From NCBI GenBank assembly GCA_029846755.1, contig JARWBI010000001.1, positions 992,001 to 1,056,000 on the forward strand: 64,000 nucleotides of DNA, given 5' to 3'. A program made the translations under genes and the position numbers. The stretch comes from Falsirhodobacter flavus (lineage in GTDB: Bacteria > Pseudomonadota > Alphaproteobacteria > Rhodobacterales > Rhodobacteraceae). Of the stretch, positions 5,020 through 40,036 are shown piece after piece (the first letter of the stretch is position 1; every line of letters begins with the position of its first letter). The notes under the pieces are model-generated. The model did not search any database. It was not told the DNA's origin and was given only the letters and a program-made list of their open reading frames with translations.

Positions 5020-6768
5020 ATGGTCCAACAGTCCCTGCTGCTGCTTCTCCTTTTCCTGCCTTTCGTGGCAAGCATCTTCGCCGCGACCATGCAGGCCAAG
5101 GCGAAGAACGCGGTGGCGTGGTTGTCAGGCGGCACGATGGTGGCGGGGCTGGCGATCCTTGCGGCGCTTTGGCCGATGATCTCGGCCGGGCAGGTGGTGC
5201 GCGACTACAACGCGTGGCTGCCGCGGCAGGGGATCAACCTGACGCTGCGGATGGACGGGCTGGCCTGGATCTTTGCGCTGATGGTGCTGGGCATCGGGCT
5301 GATGGTCGTGATCTATGCCCGGTATTACCTGTCGTCCCGCGATTCCGCGCCGCGCTTCTTTGCGTTGCTGCTGGCCTTCGCCGGGTCGATGAACGGGATG
5401 ATCCTGTCGGGCAACATCATCGTCCTGATCGTCTTCTGGGAGATGACGAGCCTGTTTTCCTTCCTGCTGATCGGGTTCTGGCACCACACGCCGAACGCGC
5501 GGGACGGGGCGCGGATGGCGCTGGTCATCACCGGAACGGGCGGACTGTGCCTGTTGGCGGGGATGCTGCTGATCGGTCACATGGCGGGCAGCTACGATCT
5601 GGACCGGGTGCTGGCGGCGGCGGATGTAATCCGCGAGCATCCTTTGTATCTGCCTGCGCTGATCCTTTTCCTGCTTGGGGCCTTTACCAAGTCGGCGCAA
5701 TTCCCGTTCCACTTCTGGCTTCCGAACGCGATGGCGGCCCCGACGCCGGTTTCGGCCTATCTCCATTCGGCGACGATGGTGAAGATGGGGGTGTTCCTGC
5801 TGGTCCGCTTCTCGCCCGTGCTTGGGGGGACGCCCGAATGGTTCAACATCGTCGGCGGCGTCGGAATGATCACGCTGACGATCGGTGCGGTGATCGCGCT
5901 GTTCCGGCATGACCTGAAGGGGCTGCTGGCCTATTCCACGATCAGCCACCTCGGCCTCATCACCGCGCTATGCGGCATCGGCAGCCCCGAGGCGATCGTG
6001 GCGGCGATCTTCCACATCATGAACCACGCTGTCTTCAAGGCGTCGCTGTTCATGGCGGCAGGGATCGTGGATCACGAGACGGGAACGCGCGACATGCGCC
6101 GCCTGTCGGGCCTCGCGCGCTACATGCCGATGACGGCGACGCTTGCGACGGTCGCGGCGGCGGCGATGGCGGGGGTGCCGCTGCTCAACGGCTTCCTTTC
6201 GAAAGAGATGTTCTTTGCCGAAGCCTATGCGTGGCACGGCGGATCACCCTTCGACGACTCCATGCCCTATATCGCGGTGCTGGCTTCCACCTTCTCTGTC
6301 GCCTATTCGCTGCGGCTGATCCACACTGTCTTCTTCGGGCCGGCCCCGGTGGACTTGCCCAAAGCGCCGCACGAGCCTGTCCACTGGATGCGCCGCCCGG
6401 TAGAGCTTCTCGTGCTGCTCTGCCTTGTCGTCGGGATCGTTCCGGCGCAGACGGTGGGGCCATGGCTGGATGCGGCGGCACGGTCGGTGCTGGGCGGGGC
6501 GATGCCCTATTATTCGCTGGCGCTGTGGCACGGGATCAACGCGCCGCTCATCATGAGCTGCATCGCGGTTGCGGCGGGGGTGCTGGTCTACGCGGCGACT
6601 GCCAGCCGTATCGCCGCCGGTCCGGAAGGGCCGCCGCTGATCCACCGCATCCGGGGCGCGCGGATGTTCGACTGGGGGCTGGTGAAGCTGACATGGAAAT
6701 GGCCGCGCAGCGCCGCGGCTTCTTCGGCACCGACCGGCTGCAACCGCAGCTTCGGCTCCTGGTGCTGA
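5020..6768 (+). CDS. mrpA: Mrp antiporter subunit A, N-terminal part (frame-broken)
   Basis: Large subunit of the Mrp (Mnh/Pha) cation/proton antiporter, homologous to NuoL. 582 residues are read before a stop at 6768. The NuoL-like core is intact, with more than ten hydrophobic helices and conserved FWEMTSLFSFLLIGFW, KSAQFPFHFWLPNAM, YSTISHLGLI and HAVFKASLFM blocks. The natural protein should continue into a C-terminal MrpA section and an MrpB domain, but those are read in another frame from about 6700 on. After WKWPRSA the last 20 or so residues are not family-like. Either a real split, a frameshift or a sequencing error (see findings). First gene of the operon; no clear Shine-Dalgarno before the ATG. 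Confidence 0.85.
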   Translation: MVQQSLLLLLLFLPFVASIFAATMQAKAKNAVAWLSGGTMVAGLAILAALWPMISAGQVVRDYNAWLPRQGINLTLRMDGLAWIFALMVLGIGLMVVIYARYYLSSRDSAPRFFALLLAFAGSMNGMILSGNIIVLIVFWEMTSLFSFLLIGFWHHTPNARDGARMALVITGTGGLCLLAGMLLIGHMAGSYDLDRVLAAADVIREHPLYLPALILFLLGAFTKSAQFPFHFWLPNAMAAPTPVSAYLHSATMVKMGVFLLVRFSPVLGGTPEWFNIVGGVGMITLTIGAVIALFRHDLKGLLAYSTISHLGLITALCGIGSPEAIVAAIFHIMNHAVFKASLFMAAGIVDHETGTRDMRRLSGLARYMPMTATLATVAAAAMAGVPLLNGFLSKEMFFAEAYAWHGGSPFDDSMPYIAVLASTFSVAYSLRLIHTVFFGPAPVDLPKAPHEPVHWMRRPVELLVLLCLVVGIVPAQTVGPWLDAAARSVLGGAMPYYSLALWHGINAPLIMSCIAVAAGVLVYAATASRIAAGPEGPPLIHRIRGARMFDWGLVKLTWKWPRSAAASSAPTGCNRSFGSWC

Positions 6769-35772: not shown

Positions 35773-36313
35773 GCTGCTTGCCGCGGCCTTCGTGCTGGCC
35801 GCTGCCCCCGCTCTGGCACAGGAAGACGGTCCCGGCCCGAACCTCGTGATCGAGGTGGGCGGCGCTGCGAAGGGGACGGTCGTGATCGACCTGCTGCCCG
35901 ACGTCGCGCCCAAGCATGTCGAACAGATCGTCGCGCTGGCCGAAGACGGTGCCTATGACGATGTGGTATTCCACCGCGTCATCGACGGCTTCATGGCTCA
36001 GACGGGCGATGTGGAGTTCGGCAAGGGCGCGGTCTCGGCGCAGTCGGGCATGGGCGGATCGTCGCGCCCGGACCTTCCGGCTGAATTCTCGGACATCCCG
36101 TTCCAACGCGGAACGGTCGGGATGGCGCGGGCGCAGAACCCGGATTCGGCCAACAGCCAGTTCTTCATCATGTTCGCACCGGGCGATTTCCTGAACGGGC
36201 AATACACCGTCGTCGGGCAGGTCGTGTCGGGGATGGAGGTGGTGGATGCCATCGCCAAGGGCGAACCGCCGACAAACGCGGATCGCATGGTTCGCGTCAC
36301 CGTCGACAAGTAA
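35765..36313 (+). CDS. ppiA: cyclophilin-type peptidyl-prolyl cis-trans isomerase, periplasmic
   Basis: 182-residue cyclophilin with a signal peptide (MRKLLAAAFVLAAAPALAQ) and the same catalytic motifs as its neighbour (VVFHRVIDGFMAQTGD, NSANSQFFIMF). The tandem gives one isomerase for each compartment, apparently from a local duplication. Ends in a strong terminator. Confidence 0.92.
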   Translation: MRKLLAAAFVLAAAPALAQEDGPGPNLVIEVGGAAKGTVVIDLLPDVAPKHVEQIVALAEDGAYDDVVFHRVIDGFMAQTGDVEFGKGAVSAQSGMGGSSRPDLPAEFSDIPFQRGTVGMARAQNPDSANSQFFIMFAPGDFLNGQYTVVGQVVSGMEVVDAIAKGEPPTNADRMVRVTVDK

Positions 36314-36318
36314 GCGAA

Positions 36319-36343
36319 GGGCCGGGGAAACCCGGCCCTTTTT
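36319..36343 (+). terminator. rho-independent terminator after ppiA
   Basis: GGGCCGGG-GAAA-CCCGGCCC stem-loop with a stable GNRA tetraloop, followed by TTTTT. Confidence 0.92.
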
Positions 36344-36429
36344 GCCGCACCCCTCATACTTTCGTTTGGCCAGCTAGGCGATTCGGGCGCAGGATGACCC
36401 GTGCAGATTGTGAGGAGGGGAGGCATCAC

Positions 36430-36714
36430 ATGATTGCGTCGAGACCCGATACGACATCGGCGACCCGCGTCGCGGGCAACTGGCTGGAAACGGTCTGTGC
36501 CGCGCAGCTTGCCGGCGCAAGACGCCAGCAGCAGATCGCGCGGGCGATCACCGAAGCCAGCGCCAGCGCTGCCGAAGATTATGCAGGGCACTTGCGACGG
36601 CTTGGCATGGCGACCGATCCCATGACCGCCTGGGCCTGTCACGAGGCGTGGCTTCGCGGAAGCTGGCAACGCGCCGCAGATCGGGCGGGGATCGTGACAT
36701 CCGCTCTGAAATGA
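36430..36714 (+). CDS. small helical protein of unknown function
   Basis: 94 residues, predicted mostly helical, with a Gln/Arg-rich amphipathic stretch (LAGARRQQQIARAITEASASA). The spacing of polar and Ala residues resembles phasin-like proteins, but I cannot assign it. Start at 36430 is supported by a GAGGGGAGG site 7-8 bases upstream. Flanked by terminators on both sides, so it is a single-gene unit. Confidence 0.65.
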   Translation: MIASRPDTTSATRVAGNWLETVCAAQLAGARRQQQIARAITEASASAAEDYAGHLRRLGMATDPMTAWACHEAWLRGSWQRAADRAGIVTSALK

Positions 36715-36741
36715 AAAGGCCCGCCTCTCGGCGGGCCTTTT
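36714..36741. terminator. bidirectional terminator
   Basis: AAAAGGCCCGCC-TCTC-GGCGGGCCTTTT, perfect 12-bp arms with A and T runs; serves the small helical gene (+) and the DUF475 gene (-). Confidence 0.92.
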
Positions 36742-36743
36742 GC

Positions 36744-37820
36744 TTAGTGCGAGTGGACGTCCACGCCCGGGTTCGCCTTGTTCCAGCGGATCGAGGACCA
36801 GAGCGCGATCCCGATCAGCGTCGCACCGCCAAGTCCGGTGATGACCTCGGGGATCGCCACGCCCGGCAGGCATTGCAGGAACATGATGACCGACAGGATC
36901 AGGATGGCATAAAACGCGCCATGTTCCAGATAGCGGTATTGCGTCAGCGTTCCGCGCTCCACCAACATGATGGTCATCGAACGCACATACATCGCGCCGA
37001 CACCCAGACCGATGGCGATGATGAACAGGTTGTGCGTCAGCGCGAAGGCCCCGATCACCCCGTCGAACGAGAAGGACGCGTCCAGCACCTCAAGATACAG
37101 GAAGGCGCCCAGACCGCCCTTGGCCGCGCCGGACATGGCTTCCTCGTTCTTGTCGAGGATACCGCCCAGCACTTCGACCAGCAGGAAGGTCAGCAGGCCC
37201 CAGATCGCCGAGTTCATGAAGGTCTGCGCATATTCCGGCGGCAGGAAGCGCGAGAAGCCCAGCATGATGCACAGGACGACCGCAATCTCGATCCCGCGGA
37301 TCGAAGAATAGCGCGCGGCCCAGTTCTCGATGGATGCGACCCAGTGGATGTCTTTTTCGTGGTCGAAGAAGAATTTCAGCGCGACCATCATCAGAAAGGC
37401 GCCGCCGAATGCCGCGATGGGCAGGTGGGCGTCATGCATGATGCGCGAATATTCGTCCGGCTGCGAGGCGGCCATGACCATGGCTTCCCACGGGCCGACA
37501 TTTGCCGCCACGACGACGATCAGCACCGGGAACACGATCCGCATGCCGAACACGGCGATCAGGATACCCCAGGTCAGGAAGCGGCGCTGCCAGACCGGCG
37601 TCATGTCTTTCAGCTTGTTGGCGTTGACGATCGCGTTGTCGAAGGACAGCGAAATTTCAAGCACCGCAAGGACGGCGACGATGAAGAAGATGGTCAGCGT
37701 GCCGCCGATGGTGCCCGTCGTTTCCCATCCCAGCCAGGCACCGAGGCCAAGGCCGATGACGGTCGAGACGAAGGCCCATGTCAGATAGGACAACGTCGAT
37801 TTTTGTGGTGCAGTGGTCAT
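36744..37820 (-). CDS. DUF475 family integral membrane protein (TerC-like)
   Basis: 358-residue polytopic membrane protein with about nine helices. It shows the TerC-superfamily double motif: EISLSFDNAIVNANKLKDM near the N-terminus and DASFSFDGVIGAFALTHN in the second half, each with acidic/Asn residues inside a membrane segment. Related proteins are implicated in metal (Mn) export or tellurite resistance; the substrate here is unknown. I looked for a yybP-ykoY Mn riboswitch upstream and could not identify one. Confidence 0.82.
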   Translation of the reverse strand: MTTAPQKSTLSYLTWAFVSTVIGLGLGAWLGWETTGTIGGTLTIFFIVAVLAVLEISLSFDNAIVNANKLKDMTPVWQRRFLTWGILIAVFGMRIVFPVLIVVVAANVGPWEAMVMAASQPDEYSRIMHDAHLPIAAFGGAFLMMVALKFFFDHEKDIHWVASIENWAARYSSIRGIEIAVVLCIMLGFSRFLPPEYAQTFMNSAIWGLLTFLLVEVLGGILDKNEEAMSGAAKGGLGAFLYLEVLDASFSFDGVIGAFALTHNLFIIAIGLGVGAMYVRSMTIMLVERGTLTQYRYLEHGAFYAILILSVIMFLQCLPGVAIPEVITGLGGATLIGIALWSSIRWNKANPGVDVHSH

Positions 37821-38039
37821 GCGAACCCCCGGATAGCGGCATGACGGGCAACAGCCCGCTTTGCGTCGAATTGGGTCATTGAATACAAACGTCCATGCGG
37901 CGCGAACGCTTCGGTGCCGACATCACGTGAGTTGCCGCATTACTGACGCCAGAGGGGCCCGGTCACCGTATCGCCCTTTCGGGCACTGTCGTTATCTATA
38001 GCGCGTTTTGTCACACGGCAACAACTTTCCGCGAGCGTG

Positions 38040-38648
38040 TCAGAAGATGCGCCGCGCCGTTGCAAGAACCACCGCCTGCGATGCCGTCTGCGCCCCGAGC
38101 TTGCGCTTGGCGCTGGCCAGCCGGGCCTTCACGGCGGACACGGATATTCCAAGCTCCCACGCGATCTGCTTGAGGCGCTTGCCTTCGGACTGCATCCGGA
38201 GCGCCTCGATTTCGGCCGGGGTGAGCGAGACGTCGTCCAGATCGCCGTGGTGAAGCTGCGAGAGCAGCGTGAACAGCCGTTCCAGCTCGTCATCGCTGAA
38301 AGGGCGGTCGTCGCGAAAGAAATTGGCATAGCTGCGCCGCCCAGCCAGCCCGGTGATCGTGGCCGCCGCGCCATAGGTCAACCCATGGTCGCGCGCTACG
38401 CCCATCACACCGCGCGGATCGGGGATCTCTATCTCGGACCAGCGGATGATGCTGCCGGGCGAAGAATAGAACCAACGCATGACCGGATCGTGGACGCCCA
38501 GGCCGTGGATCGTATAGAATTCCACCCAAGGCAATGGCAGGCGGTTCACTTCCTCCTGCGGGAAGGAAAAGCCGACATGCAGTGCAATATAGAAGCCTAC
38601 CGGGGAAAGCCGGGCGGCTTCGTCAAGCTGGTTGGCTGGTCTGGGCAT
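38040..38648 (-). CDS. LuxR-family regulator with autoinducer-binding domain
   Basis: 202-residue quorum-sensing-type regulator. The N-terminal acyl-homoserine-lactone domain keeps the TraR/LuxR invariant residues: Trp and Tyr in PWVEFYTIHG, Asp-Pro in VHDPVMRW and Trp in IIRW. The C-terminal LuxR helix-turn-helix is LTPAEIEALRMQSEGKRLKQIAWELGISVSAVKARLASAKRKL. ATG 38648 is preferred over GTG 38675 because of a weak GAG upstream and family fit. No luxI synthase is in the window. Divergent from a second ligand-binding protein. Confidence 0.88.
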   Translation of the reverse strand: MPRPANQLDEAARLSPVGFYIALHVGFSFPQEEVNRLPLPWVEFYTIHGLGVHDPVMRWFYSSPGSIIRWSEIEIPDPRGVMGVARDHGLTYGAAATITGLAGRRSYANFFRDDRPFSDDELERLFTLLSQLHHGDLDDVSLTPAEIEALRMQSEGKRLKQIAWELGISVSAVKARLASAKRKLGAQTASQAVVLATARRIF

Positions 38649-38714
38649 CGATCTCACAACCCGCTTGCTATTCACTATTGCTTAGCTTTGCGAGTCGTAT
38701 AGCTCATCAAAGCG

Positions 38715-38726
38715 TGTCGGAAGACA
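38715..38726. promoter_or_regulatory. short palindrome in the LuxR-pair intergenic region
   Basis: TGTC-GGAA-GACA, a perfect 4-bp dyad in the 116-bp divergent region, 38 bp before the downstream gene. The arms resemble the core of some lux-box operators, but it is short and could be chance. Confidence 0.25.
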
Positions 38727-38764
38727 GGTGATGAACGCGTTTGATTAACAGGTATTGCTGACAA

Positions 38765-39235
38765 ATGTCTAAGGTTGAAGAGGTTACGCGCCGGCTGAGG
38801 GAACTCTCGTCGATTTGCGATACGGGCTATGCGCTGGCGATCCATATTCGGTTCACAAGCCCAACCCTACTCTATCAGACTTATCCCGACGAATGGATTC
38901 GCTTCTATACCGAACGTGGCTTCATGCTGTCCGATCCCGTGGTGCGTTGGGGGCTCAGGGAAACCGGCTTCATCCGCTGGAACGATATCCCCGACGAAGA
39001 CCACGAAGCCGTCATGGTTCATGCCCGCCAGCACGGTATCGCGCATGGCGTGGCCTTTTCGCTGGGCACTCCCGCGTCGCGGACGCTTGCCGGCCTGACT
39101 CGGTCGCAGGATGAATTCACGGGGGATGAGATCGACCGGATGATCGGCCTCGTGAGCGAGATCCACGATCTTACGCGCGAGCCTGGCGACGATCTTGCGA
39201 CCCTTCGCAGCCTAACCGCGGCGAGCCTCCGGTAG
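38765..39235 (+). CDS. stand-alone autoinducer-binding-domain protein, no HTH
   Basis: 156-residue protein consisting only of the LuxR autoinducer-binding domain. All ligand-contact residues are present: Trp/Tyr in [11 protein letters not shown], Asp-Pro in LSDPVVRW, Trp in FIRWNDI and Gly in [11 protein letters not shown]. It ends at an ordinary stop, and no HTH is found in any frame beyond, where bpt overlaps it by 24 bp. Could sequester signal or form non-binding heterodimers with the divergent LuxR protein. No known role. Confidence 0.8.
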
Positions 39236-40036
39236 GCTGATCTTCGCGACCTGCTCGGCGATCGGATCGACGGACAGAGGGTGCAGTTCGGAGCTGTGCG
39301 CCTCGGCATCGCCAAGATCCTGCCAGACGCCACCCTTGTAGATTTCCAGCGCCGAATAATTGGCCTTGTAGCCCATCTTGCGGCTGCCGGGCACCCAGTA
39401 TCCCAAGTAGACATAAGGCAGCCCCGCCTCGCGAGCGATGCGCACATGGTCGAGGATCAGGAAGGCACCGAGGCTCTGGTCGCTTAGGGCCGGGTCGTAG
39501 AAGGAATAGACCATGCTGAGGCCGTCATCGAAGATGTCGGTCAGGCAGACCGCGCTCAGATCGCGCTCTCCGCCGCCGACCTCGCGCGTATATTCGATGA
39601 CGCGGCTGCGGATCGGCGTTTCCTCGATCATCGCGGCGAATTCGAAGATGTCCATGTCGGCCATGCCACCATCGGCATGACGCGCGTCCAAATACCGGCG
39701 GAACAGCGCATACTGATCCTCGGTCGCCCAGGGCGAGGTCGCGTTCCGCTTCAACCCGTCGTTCTTCTTCAGGATGCGCCGCTGCGTCCGCGACGGTTCG
39801 AAATCCGCGACCCTGATCCGGGCGGAAAGGCAGGCCGAACATTCCGCGCAGGAAGGACGATACAGCACGTTCTGCGACCGGCGGAACCCCTGCTTGGACA
39901 GCGCATCGTTCAGCGTCTGCGCATGTTCGCCCTGAAGCGCGGTGAACAGCTTGCGCTCCATCCGCCCGTCCAGATAGGGGCAGGCCTGCGGTGCCGTCAC
40001 ATAGAACTGGGGCGCAATGGGAAGTGTATGACGCAT
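39212..40036 (-). CDS. bpt: aspartate/glutamate leucyltransferase
   Basis: 274-residue Bpt/Ate enzyme that adds leucine from Leu-tRNA to N-terminal Asp or Glu, marking proteins for ClpAP in the N-end rule. The N-terminal domain has [15 protein letters not shown] and the cysteine cluster [12 protein letters not shown]; the C-terminal GNAT-like domain has SMVYSFYDP and [18 protein letters not shown]. Last gene of a minus-strand group with the RDD and DUF2852 genes. Confidence 0.93.

Follow-up and report, generated by a model that had tools for sequence, protein, structure and literature searches.

A probable CerM/CerN-type pair of LuxR proteins in Falsirhodobacter flavus and its conservation within the family

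In Cereibacter sphaeroides, the LuxR-type regulator CerM binds DNA without an acyl-homoserine lactone (AHL), and its partner CerN, which lacks the helix-turn-helix (HTH), attaches to CerM in the presence of AHL and, together with AHL, weakens the binding of CerM to DNA (PMC11655674, 2024). Here we describe a divergent pair of neighbouring genes in a 64,000-nucleotide stretch of Falsirhodobacter flavus (GCA_029846755.1, contig JARWBI010000001.1, positions 992,001 to 1,056,000; hereafter the window), an organism that is a relative of Falsirhodobacter xinxiangensis. One gene codes for a full-length LuxR regulator (cerM-like) and the other for a LuxR ligand-domain protein without an HTH (cerN-like). 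We judge, with a probability of roughly 70%, that the pair is a two-protein receptor of the CerM/CerN type, in which a DNA binder blind to the ligand is released by an AHL sensor without an HTH, with the signal coming from an unlinked LuxI or from other bacteria.

In such a receptor the CerM-like protein would bind DNA without AHL, because its pocket has lost an AHL-binding Tyr and is, as we propose, occupied by an aromatic side chain. A normal AHL pocket would be kept by the CerN-like protein, which, once loaded, would pair with CerM and take it off the DNA, so that AHL would act through CerN as a release signal. The AHL would be made by the genome's unlinked LuxI or by other bacteria, and CerM would also regulate its own divergent promoter. 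Our analysis establishes the domain make-up, clade membership, conservation, pocket signatures and purifying selection of the pair; the AHL-dependent binding of CerM to CerN and the weakened DNA binding are known for C. sphaeroides only (PMC11655674), and by analogy the window pair would work in the same way, antagonism included. The features on which the argument draws are as follows.

38040..38648, minus strand: cerM-like gene, LuxR regulator of 202 amino acids (aa) from an ATG, with the HTH at residues 141-196
Pocket of the cerM-like protein: L37 (TraR Tyr53 position), W41 (W57), Y45, D54, P55, W70, G93 and Y107 (RhlR Val133 position)
38649..38764, no strand: divergent control region of 116 bp, with a G+C content (GC) of 0.457 against 0.643 for the window
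38765..39235, plus strand: cerN-like gene for a protein of 156 aa that consists of a LuxR ligand domain and has no HTH
Pocket of the cerN-like protein: Y40 (TraR Tyr53 position), W44, Y48, D57, P58, W72, G95 and L108 (RhlR Val133 position)

The distance of 116 bp between the two divergent genes, given in a first-pass annotation made from the letters alone, was confirmed at these coordinates with the ATG start; an alternative GTG start at 38675 would give a cerM-like protein of 211 aa. Likewise, the claim that only the minus-strand protein has an HTH agrees with Pfam, which matched both Autoind_bind (E 4.3e-10) and GerE (E 1.7e-9) in the cerM-like protein and Autoind_bind alone (E 1.2e-17) in the cerN-like protein. 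By sequence, the closest solved structures were an RhlR variant for the former and SdiA for the latter. A single-sequence structure prediction of the cerN-like protein reached a mean predicted local distance difference test score (pLDDT) of 45 and was not used. The genome holds three Autoind_bind genes above the cut-off, two in the window and the third on contig 44; by similarity alone the cerN-like protein is nearer to this third LuxR (42%) than to its own neighbour (34%).

To follow the pair, we used a sample of 295 genomes of the family, in which the cerN-like query matched in 142 and the cerM-like query in 199. Among the best 63 cerM-like matches, 47 had a cerN-like gene within 2 kb of the regulator, divergent in 47 of 47. 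Three matches (G107:C7, G080:C36 and G291:C23) were judged to belong to another LuxR group and left out, and 61 loci were compared, 60 fetched with about 6.5 kb on each side plus that of F. xinxiangensis (L006); several were shortened by contig ends (for instance L085, 5995 bases), and their flanks are partly seen. The 61 loci hold 61 regulators with an HTH (195-218 aa) and, the window pair counted, 57 partners without one (141-180 aa), which bears out the view that the short window protein ends naturally. The pairs are divergent in 54 loci and in tandem in three, and for four regulators (L116, L117, L124 and L125) no partner was found within the stretch fetched. In all, the pair is present in at least 54 of the 295 genomes, a lower bound because weaker and unlisted cerM-like matches fell outside the count. 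Across 385 genomes sampled from the whole class, matches occurred in seven, two of which belong to the family; the five outside it gave weak matches only (E 1.3e-8 or worse), all in frames longer than 200 aa. A locus-level search for relatives returned one.

The first-pass annotation had called for a check of conservation, and had named as fatal to its view that the two genes never co-occur or that relatives carry an HTH in the second gene. Regulator and partner stand together in 57 of 61 loci, and an HTH was found in none of the 57 partners. Since the partners are HTH-less throughout and matches outside the family are weak, the loss of the HTH is evidently old and the pair forms a unit.

The same picture emerged from a tree of 130 ligand domains. 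One branch, with a support of 99 in the Shimodaira-Hasegawa-like approximate likelihood ratio test (SH-aLRT), has every one of the 61 regulators on the same side, and a second branch (SH-aLRT 95) does so for the 57 HTH-less partners. A third group, with a support of 66, is made up of 12 other LuxRs. The cerM-like and cerN-like proteins of the window belong to the CerM and the CerN clade, respectively, and the proteins of G051 (locus L104), which we take by inference to be C. sphaeroides, lie inside the same clades. In favour of that identity are the single luxI of G051, past cerM and in the same orientation, the Phe at TraR position 57 of its CerM and the 31% identity between its two partners, the last two in agreement with PMC11655674. 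A recent truncation of the second gene is thus ruled out. The tree is a quick, unrooted one of 131 columns in which 69 of the 127 inner branches are weak. Being unrooted, it is silent on which LuxR lost its HTH, and one loss suffices; a placement of CerN as sister of the other LuxR group was withdrawn, as three one-sided groups in an unrooted tree give no order.

Some loci depart from the usual arrangement. The three tandem loci (L121, L122 and L123) have HTH-less partners on a shared long branch, placed after luxI in L122 and L123, with a Trp at the TraR Gly113 position that perhaps reflects a changed ligand. Two pairs and one unpaired regulator occur in G107 (L115, L125, L126), and G006 (L091, L118) has two pairs, one linked to luxI and one not. 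In L136 (G244:C69), the minus-strand frame 5913-6452 is an HTH-less CerN-like gene, and neither a CerM-like gene nor luxI was found in the 12.5 kb fetched.

The conservation of the pair bears on what the short protein does. The first-pass annotation had proposed a sensing module with built-in inhibition or signal buffering; inhibition gains from the published CerM/CerN case together with the conservation of the pair, and buffering found no support of its own. A mere AHL sink, which would soak up AHL and buffer the signal with no contact to the regulator, would be in keeping with the AHL pocket that the cerN-like protein retains, and ligand sequestration has been proposed as one possibility for proteins consisting of an autoinducer-binding domain (ABD) only (PMC4338825). 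A free sink, however, needs no fixed neighbour, yet 57 of the 61 regulators have their partner next door, and CerM and CerN of C. sphaeroides bind each other (PMC11655674). We regard this explanation as very unlikely.

We then compared the ligand pockets, numbering the canonical residues by TraR as in PMC11655674. Both window proteins have the Trp, Tyr, Asp-Pro and Trp that the first reading had pointed out, and in addition the Gly (W57, Y61, D70, P71, W85 and G113). Across the 61 CerM proteins these six residues are kept in 60, 61, 61, 61, 57 and 60 cases, respectively, and across the 57 CerN proteins in 57, 57, 57, 56, 56 and 54. The two groups part at two other positions. The first is TraR Tyr53, four residues before Trp57, which alignments to the SdiA and RhlR structures equate with SdiA Tyr63 and RhlR Tyr64; the second is RhlR Val133, placed by alignment to the RhlR variant. 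At the Tyr53 position CerM has Leu in 48, Phe in nine, Met in two and Tyr in two proteins, so that the AHL-binding Tyr is gone in 59 of 61, whereas CerN has Tyr in 52 and Phe in five and the other LuxRs have Tyr in 12 of 12. At the RhlR-133 position CerM has Phe (38), Tyr (19), Trp (1) or Ile (3), CerN has Ile (25), Val (13), Leu (11), Met (4) or Phe (4), and the others have Ile (11) or Leu (1); an aromatic residue (Phe, Tyr or Trp) is thus found there in 58 of 61 CerM, four of 57 CerN and none of the 12 others. At the positions of RhlR Y64, W68 and V133 the residues are F/F/F in the CerM of G051, L/W/Y in the window CerM and Y/W/L in the window CerN. These pocket states were inherited along one branch; therefore, the counts are not independent events and show instead that the state was retained.

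RhlR holds N-butanoyl-homoserine lactone (C4-HSL) by hydrogen bonds, from W68 to the lactone and from Y64, D81 and S135 to the amide (PMC9715718). In the absence of ligand, Y64F alone raises RhlR activity 37-fold over background and V133F 177-fold, and the triple variant RhlR* (Y64F W68F V133F) is fully ligand-independent (PMC6564026). It may be, then, that the corresponding changes cause the AHL-independence of CerM. The cause put forward for C. sphaeroides is W57F (PMC11655674), and the CerM of G051 does have Phe at TraR position 57, as in Table 2 of that paper; as a general cause W57F is set aside, being found in only one of the 61 CerM. Neither RhlR nor Tyr53 is mentioned in the CerM paper, and a search of the open-licence literature found no publication joining CerM, RhlR and sphaeroides. 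The CerM-specific pocket signature is apparently new.

The first-pass annotation had taken TrlR of Agrobacterium as its model, and here it has to give way, as CerM/CerN is the closest case. On a TrlR-like scheme, AHL would activate the full LuxR in the usual manner and the AHL-bound HTH-less protein would form inactive heterodimers with it, setting a threshold. TrlR does this to TraR (PMC11655674, PMC13043044), and the pockets of both window proteins, which retain all six canonical residues, would allow it. But 59 of 61 CerM lack the Tyr53 equivalent and 58 of 61 carry the aromatic residue at the RhlR-133 position, the C. sphaeroides CerM needs no AHL to bind DNA, and the identity of TrlR to TraR is 88% (PMC11655674), against 33.3% for the ligand domains of the window pair. 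The latter value is typical of the pair, the mean per locus being 32.6% (20.3-39.1, n=57), with 31% for the partners of G051, as in PMC11655674. A TrlR-like dominant negative is thus unlikely here, if less so than the sink.

Several points weigh against a CerM/CerN-type receptor in the window. In C. sphaeroides AHL alone weakened the binding of CerM to DNA somewhat, less than with CerN, and CerM may still bind some AHL, since nearly all of the six canonical residues are retained in its clade. The signature marks a single branch and has exceptions: two CerM have Tyr53, three have Ile at position 133, five CerN have Phe at position 53 and four have Phe at 133. The window CerM itself retains Trp57 and has Leu and Tyr in place of the two Phe. 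Phe is, moreover, among the residues recorded at the RhlR-133 position, and the equivalent changes fail to free LasR (PMC6564026). In the window and in L006, no luxI linked to the pair was found. Finally, the CerM level is notably lower in the C. sphaeroides cerN mutant, and motility returns in part in a cerI cerN double mutant (PMC11655674); because of these two results, CerN may also stabilise CerM. It could even be that the main task of the short protein is to fold or protect the regulator and that antagonism is secondary, for which the reduced CerM of the cerN mutant would speak; the same mutant, however, shows full CerM-dependent repression, undone by removal of cerM (PMC11655674). We therefore hold this account to be highly improbable, slightly more so than the sink.

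The linkage to luxI was followed across the family. In 46 of 61 loci a luxI lies 3' of the regulator and in the same orientation; the cut-off gave 45 of these, and L111, where a long open frame overlaps by 447 bases, was added. Because 15 of the 61 loci are without a linked luxI, we did not count it as defining for the pair. In five of the 46, G051 among them, 764-986 bp separate regulator and luxI, room for another gene such as cerR, and the luxI of G051 is its only one. A luxI was present somewhere in each of the 54 genomes with a pair (56 genomes searched, 55 positive; the exception, G085, is pair-less). In G085 (L116) the CerM-like protein has the typical pocket (Leu, Trp, Phe), but neither a partner within the fetched stretch nor a luxI match anywhere in the genome was found. 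The first reading had found no luxI nearby, which stands for the neighbourhood but not for the genome, where one luxI above the cut-off lies on contig 44 directly after the third luxR. No convincing remnant of luxI was found in 36300-38060, the best tblastn match (E 0.002) falling inside terC. The missing linked luxI is, as far as these genomes indicate, a trait of the window's lineage.

The pair is flanked by two genes that help to define its site.

36744..37820, minus strand, left flank: gene for what we take to be a terC-like membrane protein; it adjoins ate in four pair-less congeners
39212..40036, minus strand, right flank: presumably an ate/bpt-like aminoacyl-protein transferase gene, whose end overlaps that of the cerN-like gene by 24 bp

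With eight flanking proteins as queries (ppi1 was uninformative), the terC-like and ate-like flanks were found in none of the other 59 loci, within the stretch fetched. In the genus, two of seven genomes have the pair. Four of the five pair-less congeners have the terC-like and ate-like genes adjacent without it, and the fifth gave no terC match. These four pair-less sites are L132, L133, L134 and L135 (G298, G296, G295 and G297); three of the genomes have one Autoind_bind match elsewhere and one has none. The simplest reading is that both genes arrived at the terC/ate site as a unit without luxI; the pair may instead have been lost in the four congeners. The GC of cerM (0.635) and cerN (0.603), set against 0.643 for the window, left no compositional trace of recent foreign origin.

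Between the window and L006, the ratio of nonsynonymous to synonymous substitution (dN/dS) was 0.081 for cerM and 0.058 for cerN at a synonymous divergence (dS) of about 0.55; terC and ate gave ratios of 0.005 and 0.026, respectively. By this measure cerM and cerN are clearly under purifying selection, if looser than their neighbours. G299 yielded the same figures as L006, and the two may belong to one species. These values also bear on whether the pair is a decaying remnant, left without a role in the genus after loss of a linked luxI. The missing linked luxI and luxI remnant would fit decay, as would the presence of the pair in only two of seven genomes; the dN/dS values, the open frames, the intact pocket and HTH, and the luxI elsewhere in the genome argue otherwise, and of all the explanations considered we find this one the least credible.

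We also searched the control region for the published CerM motif, TNT(N5)AAGACA(N2)T (PMC11655674).

38713..38729, plus strand: candidate CerM site with one mismatch to the motif, weak evidence

This is the only match with at most one mismatch in the 64 kb, where 2.37 are expected by chance, so that only its location is of note; 3.4% of Markov resamples of the 116-bp region reach such a match. With L006 excluded from the intergenic counts as a near copy, a match with at most one mismatch occurs in six of 53 intergenic regions, against 1.23 expected and at most four in 100 simulations. The best match in the intergenic region of G051 has three mismatches. These matches lend weak support to autoregulation of CerM via the divergent promoter. 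A de novo motif search in the 53 regions returned GCAACCtnaaaGCGA, mostly just 5' of the cerN start. It stands 4-18 bp before the start (for example in L082, L078 and L090), scores above 10 in 26 of 54 regions and is absent from the window; perhaps it is a leader or ribosome-binding feature of the cerN mRNA.

The odds are about even, in our estimation, that CerM/CerN is a general, family-wide split receptor, in which CerM is naturally ligand-blind at the RhlR* positions and AHL sensing is handed to the HTH-less protein, and that the module can move and persist without a synthase gene of its own, responding in this genus to AHL from an unlinked LuxI or from other bacteria. We found no report of a family-wide CerM/CerN pair in the open-licence literature. 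The present comparison extends a finding made in a single species in 2024 to a regulatory module that is old and found across the family, and the pocket signature gives a structural explanation, open to test, of why CerN needs AHL and CerM does not. Short LuxR proteins that carry the annotation "truncated" may, on this evidence, likewise be conserved AHL sensors.

Set beside the systems described so far, the window pair comes closest to CerM/CerN. It shares with that pair an HTH-less partner divergent from a full LuxR, as seen in G051, the six pocket residues retained, a low identity between the partners and an AHL synthase gene in the genome. It differs in lacking a linked luxI, whereas cerR-cerI follow in C. 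sphaeroides, in the Trp57 of its CerM and in its site between terC and ate. TrlR/TraR is likewise an HTH-less LuxR homologue able to inactivate a full LuxR by pairing, but TrlR is far closer in sequence to its target and TraR needs AHL to bind DNA (PMC11655674), whereas the window pair has a CerM-type pocket. RhlR* (PMC6564026) is altered at the same pocket positions as CerM, a likeness of mechanism and not of descent; it is a made mutant of an AHL-activated activator with no HTH-less partner, and most CerM carry Leu rather than Phe at the Y64 position and retain the Trp. The survey of LuxR solos (PMC4338825) records ABD-only proteins, often near a full LuxR gene, and adjacent LuxR genes with an unlinked luxI, in Rhodobacterales among others; its available passages give neither the pair as a conserved unit nor its mechanism. 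A LuxR solo is one whose genome has no cognate AHL synthase; the one luxI of the window genome, which may also serve the pair, stands directly after another luxR.
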